Positions 18,632-23,167 of a stretch of 28,276 bases of DNA are shown one piece after another. How positions within the stretch are numbered: position 1 is the stretch's first letter; the number at the start of each line of letters is the position of its first letter. A program made the translations under genes and the position numbers. This DNA is from a virus: the IMG/VR virus record IMGVR_UViG_3300021964_000386, positions 1 through 28,276 of that record; one strand, 5' to 3'. The notes beneath the pieces are model-generated. The model was not told where the DNA came from. It was given only the letters and a program-made list of their open reading frames with translations, and searched no databases.

Positions 18632-19284
18632 AGTGGATTGATATAAAAAACGAAGAAGTTCTACAGTTGCTAACTGATTATAGTGACTGGTTTTTCAATT
18701 CAGATCTCGTAAAGCTAACAGAGATTGCAAATGGAAAAGAAAGACACCAAGGAATGTTGTTAGAAGAAGCCTGCGGTGAGGAATATTTAAAGGAAATTGT
18801 GGATAAAGATGGTAAACACATTGGATACCCTGAAAGAACTCTTTCGGTGGATATTAATACTTCAGAAAATGCACCACTAGAACACAAAGAGAAAAGAAAC
18901 AAACTAGCAGCTGAGTTATGTTCTTATTTAGGTGCTCGCAATCAGGCAGTAAATGTATTCTATCCTGAGGGAGGATACATGGGCTGGCACAATAATTGGA
19001 ATGCTTCTGGTTATAATATACTATTGTCGTATTCACCTACAGGCAATGGTTTCTTTAGATACATGGATCCTCTCACCAAAGAAATAGTAACTATGGAAGA
19101 CAAGCCAGGTTGGACTTGTAAAGTAGGATACTATGGCAGAGGCAGAGAACCCGACAAAGTTTATTATCACTGTGCCGGGTCCTATGAGCCTCGTATTACT
19201 TTAGGATTTGTTGTTCCTCACTTAGAAATATGGCGTAGTATGATTGAGGATATATCAGAAGAAGACGCTACTTCTTTCCAATAG
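18628..19284 (+). CDS. 2OG-Fe(II) oxygenase-like protein
   Basis: 218 residues, starting at the ATGA overlap. The core looks like a double-stranded beta-helix dioxygenase: NVFYPEGGYMGWHNNWN (109-125), ILLSYSPTGNGFFRYMD (131-147), then VYYHCAGSYEPRITLGFVV (178-196). Candidate ligands are H121 and H181, with R189 eight residues after the distal His as the 2-oxoglutarate anchor. The usual HxD carboxylate would be N123 here, so the metal site is HxN or uses another acid; catalysis is therefore uncertain. Such enzymes hydroxylate proteins, sugars or small molecules, and they are frequent in marine T4-like phages. Its 3' end overlaps the convergent methyltransferase-like gene by 17 bases. The family call is from motif reading only. 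Confidence 0.6.
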   Translation: MKWIDIKNEEVLQLLTDYSDWFFNSDLVKLTEIANGKERHQGMLLEEACGEEYLKEIVDKDGKHIGYPERTLSVDINTSENAPLEHKEKRNKLAAELCSYLGARNQAVNVFYPEGGYMGWHNNWNASGYNILLSYSPTGNGFFRYMDPLTKEIVTMEDKPGWTCKVGYYGRGREPDKVYYHCAGSYEPRITLGFVVPHLEIWRSMIEDISEEDATSFQ

Positions 19285-19924
19285 CCATAAACCTGTCAAA
19301 GAAAACTTTACCTTCCCAGTTATAATAAAACTGTTCTATTTGTCCTGTGTATAGCGGTTTTGTTATGCCTGTGTTTTCTAAATGGCCTTCAATACTATTG
19401 ACACAATTTATGCCGTACATTTCTTGTATGACATTACTAGTTTGTAAGGCAAACAAACATTCAGGGTTAGATGTTGTCATGTCTTTTAATGGATACATTT
19501 GTTCACATCCCAATGAAATAACAATGTCAGCATCTAGTGCATTAATGTCGTGGAAGGCAAAAGGTATATCTAACTGAAGATGATTTATATCAACCCCGTT
19601 ATCAGTGTAATACTTATTGAATACTTTAGACAATTCAAGAGCTTCACGGTCAATATCAATAAGGTCCATATGTTTAATCTTAATATTCTCACAAATAAGA
19701 GGCACAAGAGGAAAGCCTAACCACGAGTTTAATACAATTATATTATATTCTTTGTCCGGGTCTAACTGTTTTACTAATTCTTCCATCATCCAAACAGAAG
19801 CATCCATAGTGTTTGGATTCATAGATTTACGAAAGTCCTCATGTTTGTGAGGCATTTCATGTTCTATTTTATCCAGGGCCATTCCCCAATATCTGAAACT
19901 AGTCAGAAAGTTTAATTTTAACAT
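19268..19924 (-). CDS. Class I SAM methyltransferase-like protein
   Basis: 218 residues on the minus strand, last gene of the five-gene cassette. A Rossmann-like succession is visible: strand NIIVLNSWLGFPLVPLI (61-77, in place of motif I), strand HMDLIDIDREALELSK (85-100) with acidic D90/D92 where the SAM ribose would bind, and ADIVISLGCEQM (132-143) in the motif IV region. The first motif lacks the usual GxGxG, so the SAM loop is atypical. The ATG at 19924 overlaps the end of the upstream glycosyltransferase by 26 bases. A plausible role is methylation of a sugar or of a fibre residue, given the neighbours. Alternatives are a non-catalytic Rossmann protein or small-molecule methyltransferase. 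Confidence 0.6.
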   Translation of the reverse strand: MLKLNFLTSFRYWGMALDKIEHEMPHKHEDFRKSMNPNTMDASVWMMEELVKQLDPDKEYNIIVLNSWLGFPLVPLICENIKIKHMDLIDIDREALELSKVFNKYYTDNGVDINHLQLDIPFAFHDINALDADIVISLGCEQMYPLKDMTTSNPECLFALQTSNVIQEMYGINCVNSIEGHLENTGITKPLYTGQIEQFYYNWEGKVFFDRFMAIGKK

Positions 19925-20603
19925 CTTCAGGTCTCTCCATCGAATCGTATAAACATATAAAAGGTGTTTCTCTGTATTTAAATTCTTCTACATCATTCGG
20001 ATATTGGTATCCATAGTTATAACTGTACACCCAACCACTAGGGAATGTTTTTATTTGATCTTGATCAAATCTATTATAAAATAAATTATCTAAACCTCTG
20101 TAATAAAAAAACATCTGACTAGGATAGTCTTTAGTCATTTTTAAAAATCTTTTCATTTCTTCTGTTTCTAACAAATAGTCGTTCCATCTCAAAATACTAG
20201 AGTTTAATTCAGTATATGCGTGTGGTATATGTTTAGTATCTTCTTTTATTTTTTTCAAATTGTGCCATTCTGTTTTAACAAATACAAGTTTATCTTCACA
20301 TGGATAATCAATAAACGCATTTAGATTTCTTTGTATGATAATATCTAAATCTAAAAATAATTTTTCTCCTTCTTGCCACACAATGTTTTGATCAAACAAA
20401 TACATCTTGTTCCACCACTTTTCGTAGTAGTTGGTTTCAGGTATTTTTAACACAACTACATTAGGATCTAAATCAGTAGGATCCTCTGTGATACAATAAA
20501 ACTTAAAGTTTCTAGTAACATGAGTTCTACATTGTTTGTAGATTTCATTTACATGAGAACTTGGGTACTTTGTTCCCCATTTAACTGTATAAATGTGTAT
20601 CAT
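19899..20603 (-). CDS. Glycosyltransferase-like paralog 4 of the tandem array
   Basis: The ATG at 20603 overlaps the preceding stop as ATGA. An in-frame TTG six bases upstream would give two more residues but is less likely. From the ATG the protein is 234 residues. It shares the array template: IHIYTVKWGTKYPSSHVNEI at the start, FKFYCITEDPTDLDP, then GEKLFLDLDIIIQRNL with the DLD metal-binding motif (D85-L86-D87), NSSILRW, and the C-terminal SGWVYSYNYG followed by FKYRETPFICLYDS. This looks like a GT-A-fold enzyme family with a nucleotide-sugar donor. The upstream gene is its paralog and the downstream gene the methyltransferase-like protein. Donor and acceptor are unknown. Confidence 0.7.
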   Translation of the reverse strand: MIHIYTVKWGTKYPSSHVNEIYKQCRTHVTRNFKFYCITEDPTDLDPNVVVLKIPETNYYEKWWNKMYLFDQNIVWQEGEKLFLDLDIIIQRNLNAFIDYPCEDKLVFVKTEWHNLKKIKEDTKHIPHAYTELNSSILRWNDYLLETEEMKRFLKMTKDYPSQMFFYYRGLDNLFYNRFDQDQIKTFPSGWVYSYNYGYQYPNDVEEFKYRETPFICLYDSMERPEDVKIKLSD

Positions 20604-21418
20604 TTCCAATGCGCCAATAATTCAGGGTCTGCTAAATCATCTTGTTTTGTATGCCCTCTACTTTTATCTTCAAATGGCAACAAATCAATGTTGAATACAC
20701 AGAGTATAGCACCCGGACGATAAGTGTCTACTCTCAGGTCATCTTCATCCCACGAACGGCCTCTGTTATATGAGTATGCCATCCAACTTGGGAAATGTCC
20801 CCATAGCTTTTCTTTACTAAACTCACCCCAACGCCAACTGTGATAGTTATCAGTGCCGTCAGTGAATGTAAACCATATCATCTCTTGGTGTTTTAGCACA
20901 TCGTGCCAAATACATTCAGTTTGATCGTCACTCCACACCATACATGAACCATTAGTGTAAGCACCGTGAGCAAGTTTAAACTGTCTTGTTTTCATTGGAC
21001 GAGGGTCTTGCCACCAACTTCTGAGTTTTGTTGGCCTATCTAAGTCGTGTGTAATAATAGGACCCATGTCATTTTGTATGACCACATCTAAATCTAGGAA
21101 AACGAAACGCCCCGTAGGCTTATCGTCAGCGAAGTTATGAGTATTAAAGATAAAAGTTTTAGGACGATCCCAGCAGCGAGCCATTCCATATTTAAAGCTG
21201 TCAGAACCAAACCAATACTTAGGATGAATATTAGGAATGTCAGGGAAGTCAATAACTTTAATCCCAGGATCAAGGCCTTCAGGAAGATCCGTGTAACAGT
21301 AAAAATGAAAGTCAAATATGCTATCATCAGTGTTACGTTTAGCCATTGAATATAATTTATTGACATAATGTGGTCCATACTTTGTGCCCCATTTACAGCA
21401 GATATAATTTACTCGCAT
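20600..21418 (-). CDS. Glycosyltransferase-like paralog 3 of the tandem array
   Basis: Two ATGs occur, at 21424 and 21418. GAGG lies 8 bases before 21418 and only 2 before 21424, so 21418 is chosen (272 residues). It is the longest paralog. The template is intact: VNYICCKWGTKYGPHYVNKL, FHFYCYTDLPEGLDPG, GRFVFLDLDVVIQNDMGPI with the DLD motif (D109-D111), NGSCMVWSDDQTE, and FPSWMAYSYNRGRSWDEDD near the end. Compared with paralog 4 it carries extra residues around 70-100 (a segment with CWDRPKTFIFNTHNF also seen in paralog 2). Paralogs 2 and 3 share more with each other than with 1 or 4, suggesting a recent duplication. Confidence 0.7.
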   Translation of the reverse strand: MRVNYICCKWGTKYGPHYVNKLYSMAKRNTDDSIFDFHFYCYTDLPEGLDPGIKVIDFPDIPNIHPKYWFGSDSFKYGMARCWDRPKTFIFNTHNFADDKPTGRFVFLDLDVVIQNDMGPIITHDLDRPTKLRSWWQDPRPMKTRQFKLAHGAYTNGSCMVWSDDQTECIWHDVLKHQEMIWFTFTDGTDNYHSWRWGEFSKEKLWGHFPSWMAYSYNRGRSWDEDDLRVDTYRPGAILCVFNIDLLPFEDKSRGHTKQDDLADPELLAHWK

Positions 21419-22164
21419 CTCCATAACCTCAACAATTCTTTGTCTTTCAATCCTTCTAATTTAATTTGTTTTTTTGCTCCGGGATCAGGTGTGTTGTCTA
21501 CATTAAATAAACACACTTTAGCATCAGGCCTATACTTAAATGGTTCAATGTCATTCGGATATTTCATTCCTCTATTGTAACTGTACACCCAATCATGCGG
21601 AATGTTTTTCCAAAAATCACGCTGTCTCCAATAGTGATAATTGTCAGAGCCTTTATAGAATGTAGTGAATATTATCTCATCTTCCATCAAAACATCATAG
21701 TATATATTTTTAGTTTGTTCCTCATTCCATAGCATCATGCTTGAATTATAAAATGTGCCACGCATTTCAATGAATAGTCTTTCGTGTTTTTGTTTACCCG
21801 GTTGCCATTCAACGTGTATCATTCTAGGTTTTTCAGCAAGAGCTTCTATTTCATCTATGTTGTTTTGAATAATAACATCTAAATCAAAGTAGCACCATTT
21901 GCCTTCATGTCCTAACCATTCATGTGAATTAAACACTAAAAACTTAGCTCTATCCCAACAATACTTCTCTTTACCAAACCAATATTTAGGATGAAGTACA
22001 CCGTCATCAGGTATAGGATGTGTGTCACATTCTAATCCTTCTGCGTCATCAGTATAACAGGTAAAGGTAAACGGTTTCGTATAGTTCTTTTTAACCATAC
22101 GAAATAGATTGTTTACATAATTGGGAGTATACTTATCGCCCCACTTTATACATACGAAATTCAT
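21409..22164 (-). CDS. Glycosyltransferase-like paralog 2 of the tandem array
   Basis: The longest frame starts at a TTG (22179); I choose the ATG at 22164, giving 251 residues and a 32-base overlap with the upstream paralog. Motifs in order: MNFVCIKWGDKYTPNYVNNL, FTFTCYTDDAEGLE, HPKYWFGKEKYCWDRAKFLV, WCYFDLDVIIQNNIDE with the DLD motif (D94-D96), YNSSMMLWNEEQT, GSDNYHYW, IPHDWVYSYNRGMKYPNDIE and ACLFN-like ending (AKVCLFNVDNTPDPG). A nucleotide-sugar-dependent transferase is the best guess. The HPKYWFG block is shared with paralog 3 and absent from 1 and 4. Overlap with both flanking paralogs indicates a single transcript and coupled translation. Confidence 0.7.
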   Translation of the reverse strand: MNFVCIKWGDKYTPNYVNNLFRMVKKNYTKPFTFTCYTDDAEGLECDTHPIPDDGVLHPKYWFGKEKYCWDRAKFLVFNSHEWLGHEGKWCYFDLDVIIQNNIDEIEALAEKPRMIHVEWQPGKQKHERLFIEMRGTFYNSSMMLWNEEQTKNIYYDVLMEDEIIFTTFYKGSDNYHYWRQRDFWKNIPHDWVYSYNRGMKYPNDIEPFKYRPDAKVCLFNVDNTPDPGAKKQIKLEGLKDKELLRLWRCE

Positions 22165-22783
22165 TATAATATTCTTCAACTAAGTTAGGAAAGTCTGCTT
22201 GACCGTTTAGTAATGCTATAGTGGCTTCAGGTTTATATCTGTTACCATCAAACTTGTATGAATATATTTCATCTTTAGGCCAACATTCAAATTCAAAGTC
22301 CTCGTGGAATAAAAATCTATCATCACCTGCGTACTTTACCATATAATAATCTTGATCTTTTTTCCAATAATTATATATATGCCTTGCATCTTCCCACAAC
22401 ATTACACTAGAATTGTAATTACTAAGATAATTATAAGACCAACGATCATCTTTATGATTGGGAAAATTTTTATCCTTCCAATAAGTATAACAAATCATAG
22501 GGTGTTTGTCAACAAAATCAAACAAATGATCTAAATCTTTTTGTATGGCTATATCTAAATCTAAATATAAAGTTTTACCGAAATAGTATTGAAATAGTTT
22601 CACTTTCTCCCAGTGGCCGTCAGGTTCACCGTCAATCAAAATAGTATAAATATCAGAACGTAATCCTTCAGGGTTATCAGTCACACATACATAATTATAC
22701 CTGCCGTTGGTGTCGAGGTATATACGGTTTACATCATCTGACGTATATTTGTCACCATATTTTAAGGTCAAAATAGTTTTCAT
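22133..22783 (-). CDS. Glycosyltransferase-like paralog 1, first gene of the minus-strand cassette
   Basis: 216 residues, the shortest and most divergent of the four. The start ATG at 22783 has a weak GGA 8 or so bases upstream. Motifs: ILTLKYGDKYTSDDVNRIYL, YVCVTDNPEGLRSD, KTLYLDLDIAIQKDLDHL with the DLD motif (D75-D77), NYNSSVMLWEDARH, GDDRFLFHEDF and IYSYKFDGNRYKPEATIALL. It lies closest to the minus-strand late promoter at 22834-22841, so it is probably the promoter-proximal gene of the five-gene operon. Function in the cell (which sugar, which acceptor) cannot be read; a late-expressed role in decorating virion proteins is inferred. Confidence 0.7.
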   Translation of the reverse strand: MKTILTLKYGDKYTSDDVNRIYLDTNGRYNYVCVTDNPEGLRSDIYTILIDGEPDGHWEKVKLFQYYFGKTLYLDLDIAIQKDLDHLFDFVDKHPMICYTYWKDKNFPNHKDDRWSYNYLSNYNSSVMLWEDARHIYNYWKKDQDYYMVKYAGDDRFLFHEDFEFECWPKDEIYSYKFDGNRYKPEATIALLNGQADFPNLVEEYYNEFRMYKVGR

Positions 22784-22799
22784 TACAAGTCCAAAATGT

Positions 22800-22807
22800 T
22801 ATAAATA
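22800..22807 (+). promoter_or_regulatory. Rightward T4-type late promoter for the fibre array
   Basis: Exact TATAAATA in the divergent intergenic gap, 33 bases before the ATG at 22841. By T4 geometry transcription would begin near 22813. It would serve the downstream fibre genes 22841 to beyond the window end. Confidence 0.72.
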
Positions 22808-22833
22808 AGTAGAACACACTAATACTTATAAGA

Positions 22834-22841
22834 TATTTATA
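22834..22841 (-). promoter_or_regulatory. Leftward T4-type late promoter for the glycosyltransferase cassette
   Basis: Exact TATAAATA read on the minus strand; its first base pairs with the A of the ATG of the rightward gene. By T4 geometry transcription would begin near 22828, about 45 bases before the ATG of the first glycosyltransferase-like gene. It faces the rightward late promoter 26 bases away. Confidence 0.68.
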
Positions 22842-23167
22842 TGGCTACAGTAAACAATATTGTAATAGATCAAGGAACGACCTTTAGCTTTACTTTCAGC
22901 TTGGATAATGCTGACGGCACTAATAAAGATCTTACTGACTATACTGTAAATGCTCAAATAAGAAAAAGTTATTATACGTCTACTAAGGTTGATTTTACTA
23001 CAGCAAAAGTAGATGCAACTGGTGAGATTACTCTAAGTCTAACAGCGGCAGAGACTTCGACCTTGAAAGCTGGTAGATATGTATATGATATTGAAATTGT
23101 TAGCAGTAGCGAAACGATTAGAGTATTAGAGGGCATTATAACTGTAACCCCTGAGGTAACTCGATAA
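22841..23167 (+). CDS. Small beta-rich structural protein (Ig/BppU-N-like)
   Basis: 108 residues. The sequence NIVIDQGTTFSFTFSLDNAD followed by LTDYTVNAQIRKSYYTSTKV and a strand-rich end (GRYVYDIEIVSSSETIRVLE, then GIITVTPEVTR) is a pattern recurring in many phage baseplate and fibre accessory proteins, similar to the N-terminal module of lactococcal BppU as I remember it. It is the first gene after the rightward late promoter and its stop overlaps the next ATG (TAATG). No clear Shine-Dalgarno is present, only AAGAT. A role as an adaptor or attachment module for the fibre proteins that follow is plausible but unproven. Confidence 0.68.
   Translation: MATVNNIVIDQGTTFSFTFSLDNADGTNKDLTDYTVNAQIRKSYYTSTKVDFTTAKVDATGEITLSLTAAETSTLKAGRYVYDIEIVSSSETIRVLEGIITVTPEVTR

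Follow-up and report, generated by a model that had tools for sequence, protein, structure and literature searches.

The divergent junction and its facing boxes

The window, by which we mean the whole stretch of DNA analysed here, is the 28,276-nt viral record IMGVR_UViG_3300021964_000386. Megablast found no near relative of it in phage records; its wider relatives are T4-like marine phages. A gap of only 57 nt separates two divergent genes, a minus strand ORF at 22133-22783 and a plus strand ORF at 22841-23167. The plus strand gene encodes a 108-aa LtfC-like protein of the L-shaped tail fibre assembly family that matches phrog_1084 (3e-28) and phrog_3304 (8.5e-25), although its score against the Pfam LtfC model (20.9 bits) is under the cut-off of 27. 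The minus strand gene encodes a 216-aa glycosyltransferase-like protein whose match to phrog_1962 (4.5e-9) is confined to residues 1-91. It is the first in a run of five minus strand ORFs (19268-22783), four of which have no PHROGs or Pfam match. The gap region, taken as 65 nt, has a G+C content of 22% (78% A+T).

Two exact copies of the 8-bp T4-type late promoter box TATAAATA lie in this region, each with a same-strand gene downstream. The plus strand copy, at 22800-22807, is 33 nt from the ATG of the LtfC-like gene, and the minus strand copy, at 22834-22841, is 50 nt from the ATG of the glycosyltransferase-like gene; both distances are inside the usual range of 20-60 nt. The boxes are separated by 26 nt, and the minus box shares base 22841, the A of the plus gene's ATG. 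The boxes stand face to face, on opposite strands and pointing at each other, as putative promoters of divergent genes. In T4 the late box occupies positions -13 to -6 relative to the transcription start (PMC1524935). With this numbering, the predicted starts are at 22813 on the plus strand and 22828 on the minus strand, and the two predicted transcripts would have a 16-nt stretch (22813-22828) in common. Thus the boxes and the 57-base divergent gap reported in the preliminary description were correct when their coordinates were rechecked, and its predicted starts, with 5' ends complementary over about 16 bases, were reproduced. That each predicted transcript would cross the other promoter, as it also stated, follows from the order of the boxes and the directions of the genes.

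Over the whole window there are seven TATAAATA boxes compared with 3.7 expected, a number reached by 9 of 100 shuffles, and a single box in the window is unremarkable. The pair is a different matter. When the 65-nt gap region is shuffled with its dinucleotides preserved, the plus box appears in 4.6% of cases, the minus box in 2.8% and the face-to-face pair in 0.03%. A third exact plus strand box is found at 22645-22652, within the minus strand gene and 155 nt upstream of the plus promoter. It falls on Ile-Tyr codons that are kept in several relatives, and may be a late promoter, whether tandem or antisense, or a coincidence of coding.

Recurrence of the layout in relatives and other phages

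The junction was compared among 80 relatives of the plus strand gene, whose loci were merged by identical gap into 30 distinct gaps. Of these, 27 have an exact plus box whose distance to the ATG is 23-33 nt. At the window's position, six distinct gaps carry an exact minus box (those of L048 and of the clade L001-L010, L012 and L013), and L011 has it with one mismatch; at any position, an exact minus box is found in 12 of the 30. In four gaps (L028, L029, L031 and L046), two overlapping boxes are instead merged back to back into the palindrome TATTTATAAATA; in L050 and L062 the exact minus box is slightly inside the plus gene. Judged by its motif, a late-type minus box recurs at shifting positions at the LtfC-like junction, and elsewhere among the relatives the minus strand gene may have weaker or other promoters. 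Conservation of both boxes, proposed earlier as a check, has a split outcome: the plus box is kept in nearly all relatives, but the position of the minus box is kept only in the clade and L048. The TATTTATAAATA palindrome upstream of the LtfC-like gene would amount to one symmetric late promoter with the potential to work in both directions.

We also scanned 50 relative records for box pairs 10-39 nt apart. Ten records have face-to-face pairs, at 11 places in all, no back-to-back pair of equal spacing occurs in any of the 50, and a reversed control pattern is present in two of them. These counts exclude a collection-wide scan, in which unrelated AT-rich viruses were mixed in. Every face-to-face pair in the fetched genomes sits at a divergent gene junction. 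Besides the LtfC-like junction, the places inspected in these genomes belong to a second one, where the head completion gene 4 (phrog_218) stands opposite a gene 48-like gene for the baseplate tail tube cap (phrog_230). Of 80 IMG/VR loci returned by a gene 4 search, 63 carry facing late-type boxes ahead of gene 4, and their cores come in 22 different sequences. As in the window, the minus box of these loci often reaches or overlaps the ATG, here that of gene 4, in the form TATTTAT-ATG. The boxes are kept at this junction while the intervening sequence and its length vary, from 7 to 26 nt. Among cultured cyanophages, the pair is found before gene 4 in Syn9, Syn33, P-SSM2, S-CAM4, ACG-2014d and ACG-2014f, and is absent there from S-CAM1. 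These gene 48/4 junctions of the Kyanoviridae resemble the window in having facing late-type boxes in short divergent gaps, with a minus box that touches or overlaps the ATG. They differ from it in their genes and in that the boxes often read CTAAATA, a late box form that has been described for phage Aeh1 (PMC1524935).

The layout extends to T4 itself. The 47-bp gap between the divergent late genes 4 and 53 of T4 reads TATAAATA-7 nt-TATTTATA, and like the window it has two exact TATAAATA boxes facing each other. The T4 boxes, however, are only 7 nt apart compared with 26 nt in the window, the predicted starts do not overlap, and the genes are different. This pair was found by direct reading of the gap, since an exact-pattern search for spacings of 10-39 nt in T4 and five cultured phages misses it; a relaxed pattern (8-37 nt) recovered T4 homing endonuclease starts and the ACG-2014d gene 4 gap. 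The same gene 4 layout is found in Krischvirus, Proteus phage Pm5461, Acinetobacter phage PhaR5 and Escherichia phage HY126. The GenBank record of Pm5461 already annotates both facing promoters at gene 4/53, which are 9 nt apart, the annotation being based on the motif and not on mapped starts. The preliminary description remarked that T4 late promoters are not usually described in this form; the T4 gap and the Pm5461 annotation contradict the idea that it is foreign to T4. Literature searches found no discussion of face-to-face or divergent T4 late promoters. Boxes of the CTAAATA type stand back to back in the 66-bp gaps of Vibrio phage V05 and Aeromonas phage Aswh_1, and boxes are also back to back in a 169-bp gap of a further genome (G008). 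The crossed layout at the gene 4 junction is old.

Promoter function and packing in short gaps

To judge whether boxes in both directions behave as promoters, we counted NATAAATA in the intergenic gaps between mechanically called ORFs of 11 related genomes. Divergent gaps contain 26 boxes in 4,286 bases, both strands included. Tandem gaps contain 109 sense and 11 antisense boxes in 30,744 bases, and convergent gaps contain none in 2,461 bases. Per strand, this amounts to about 3.0 boxes per kb in divergent gaps versus 3.5 (sense) and 0.36 (antisense) in tandem gaps. Because the density in divergent gaps is near the sense rate, boxes in both directions appear promoter-like. This is the strongest evidence that bears on the question, and both promoters in the window are probably real. 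The minus box might instead be a chance AT-rich match at a start codon, with no promoter role. The base composition of the gap, the frequency with which shuffles produce the minus box alone and its lack in most other relatives at this junction all speak for such a coincidence. Yet the box is kept in the clade while the adjacent bases vary, the same TATTTAT-ATG overlap is seen at the unrelated gene 4 junction, and on either strand of divergent gaps boxes are about eight times as dense as in the antisense background. We regard a chance match as unlikely.

Distances from box to ATG in the 11 related genomes have a broad mode of 20-45 nt and a median of about 35 nt. Roughly 20-50 nt must separate each box from its own ATG, and in a gap of only 57 nt this is probably what crosses the boxes of the window. 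We modelled this packing by drawing two box-to-ATG distances independently, from a sample to which the few crossed promoters also contributed. In gaps of 36-60 bp, 73-98% of the draws are crossed, with a median spacing of 14-23 nt; in gaps of 100 bp, 84% are back to back. Both the spacings observed in marine phages (11-26 nt) and the back-to-back arrangement in the 66- and 169-bp gaps agree with these values. According to the model, the layout needs no special function.

The reading that we favor, and consider likely, is that the junction contains two ordinary gp55-dependent late promoters that have been crossed by genome compaction. RNA polymerase with the late sigma factor of the phage, gp55, would occupy only one of the boxes at any moment. 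Bound at 22800-22807, it would start near 22813 and transcribe the LtfC-like gene; bound at 22841-22834, it would start near 22828 and transcribe the glycosyltransferase-like operon. The use of both starts, the late timing of the minus strand operon and the steric exclusion of polymerases are all predictions from sequence. A face-to-face pair would then be the default result of compact divergent late genes and not proof of a regulatory circuit. The layout is widespread among T4-related phages, from those of E. coli to those of the ocean, and since T4 has it at genes 4/53, competition of crossed late promoters can be addressed there through box mutations.

Hairpins, bidirectional promoters and regulation

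At T4 gene e and I-TevI, early read-through RNA forms a hairpin that prevents its translation, and the late box is part of the 5' arm (PMC3014915). By this precedent, only the plus box in the window would be a promoter; it would also form the 5' arm of an RNA hairpin with the second box as its 3' arm. Read-through RNA would hide the start codon, and RNA from the late promoter, without the 5' arm, would be translated, as in the two T4 genes. Gene e and I-TevI also have a late box and then its complement near the start codon, the minus box in the window overlaps the ATG, and T4 has two further face-to-face matches, one at the start of I-TevI and one at that of segB, each of which encodes a homing endonuclease. 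However, the stem at I-TevI runs past the box, and the gene upstream there shares its strand. In the window, the flanking gene points away, so there is no same-strand read-in from next door, yet the exact plus box inside it at 22645-22652 could give rise to read-through RNA. The next four inner positions pair 1/4 in the window and 0-3/4 in the relatives, which is near chance, compared with 4/4 at I-TevI and 2/4 at segB. The predicted RNA fold is no stabler than those of shuffles (z 0.60), and in it the boxes are not paired with each other. A translational hairpin was rejected because the pairing is confined to the boxes and shuffled sequences fold at least as well, and we consider it highly improbable here.

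Two crossed promoters of the kind we favor leave room for regulation. Mutual exclusion of two polymerases in the gap is physically likely given the predicted geometry, and the T4 late complex also bears a sliding clamp upstream (PMC2988020). Coupling or alternate repression of the two genes is possible. The layout could be a regulatory device in which crossed promoters couple or alternate the genes through polymerase exclusion, pairing of complementary leaders, or both. Its geometry forces polymerase competition, the crossed layout is old at the gene 4 junction, and in bidirectional promoters of E. coli strong transcription one way can repress transcription the other way, the competition mattering only when transcription is strong (PMC12825309). 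But neither the spacing nor the length of the overlap is conserved: the predicted transcripts overlap by -3 nt in T4 and by up to 16 nt in the window and L281. In addition, packing accounts for the layout, and relatives at the window's own junction use TATTTATAAATA or a minus box inside the plus gene instead. We find a regulatory device of this kind unlikely. The antisense RNA duplex at the leaders, also raised in the preliminary description, is unsupported as a conserved feature, the varying overlap ruling it out. There is likewise a small chance that crossed late promoters at divergent T4-related junctions are kept as an exclusion switch, admitting one polymerase at a time. If so, the switch would set the ratio of two assembly products, head completion versus baseplate at gene 4, and tail-fibre assembly versus sugar-modifying enzymes in the window.

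The bacterial bidirectional promoters of Warman et al. resemble the window in that divergent transcripts arise from one short segment and steric exclusion is expected. They share one pseudo-symmetric sigma-70 -10 element, whereas the window has two separate gp55-type boxes, 26 nt apart, and no shared symmetric element. Palindromic relatives such as L028 and L046 are closer to the bacterial promoters than the window is.

Late boxes near start codons were also noted at two other places. At T4 71917-71947 (L359), segB resembles I-TevI in that a late box and the complement of that box stand at its start, which by analogy suggests that it is under the same translational hairpin control. At 1178-1191 of the window, a copy of TATAAATA is followed after exactly 5 nt by the ATG of a gene 25-like baseplate gene, a spacing that puts the predicted transcript start on the A of the ATG. 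Among boxes that precede a start codon in the 11 related genomes, about one-seventh have the same 5-nt spacing, homologues being counted repeatedly, which suggests that some late mRNAs may be leaderless.
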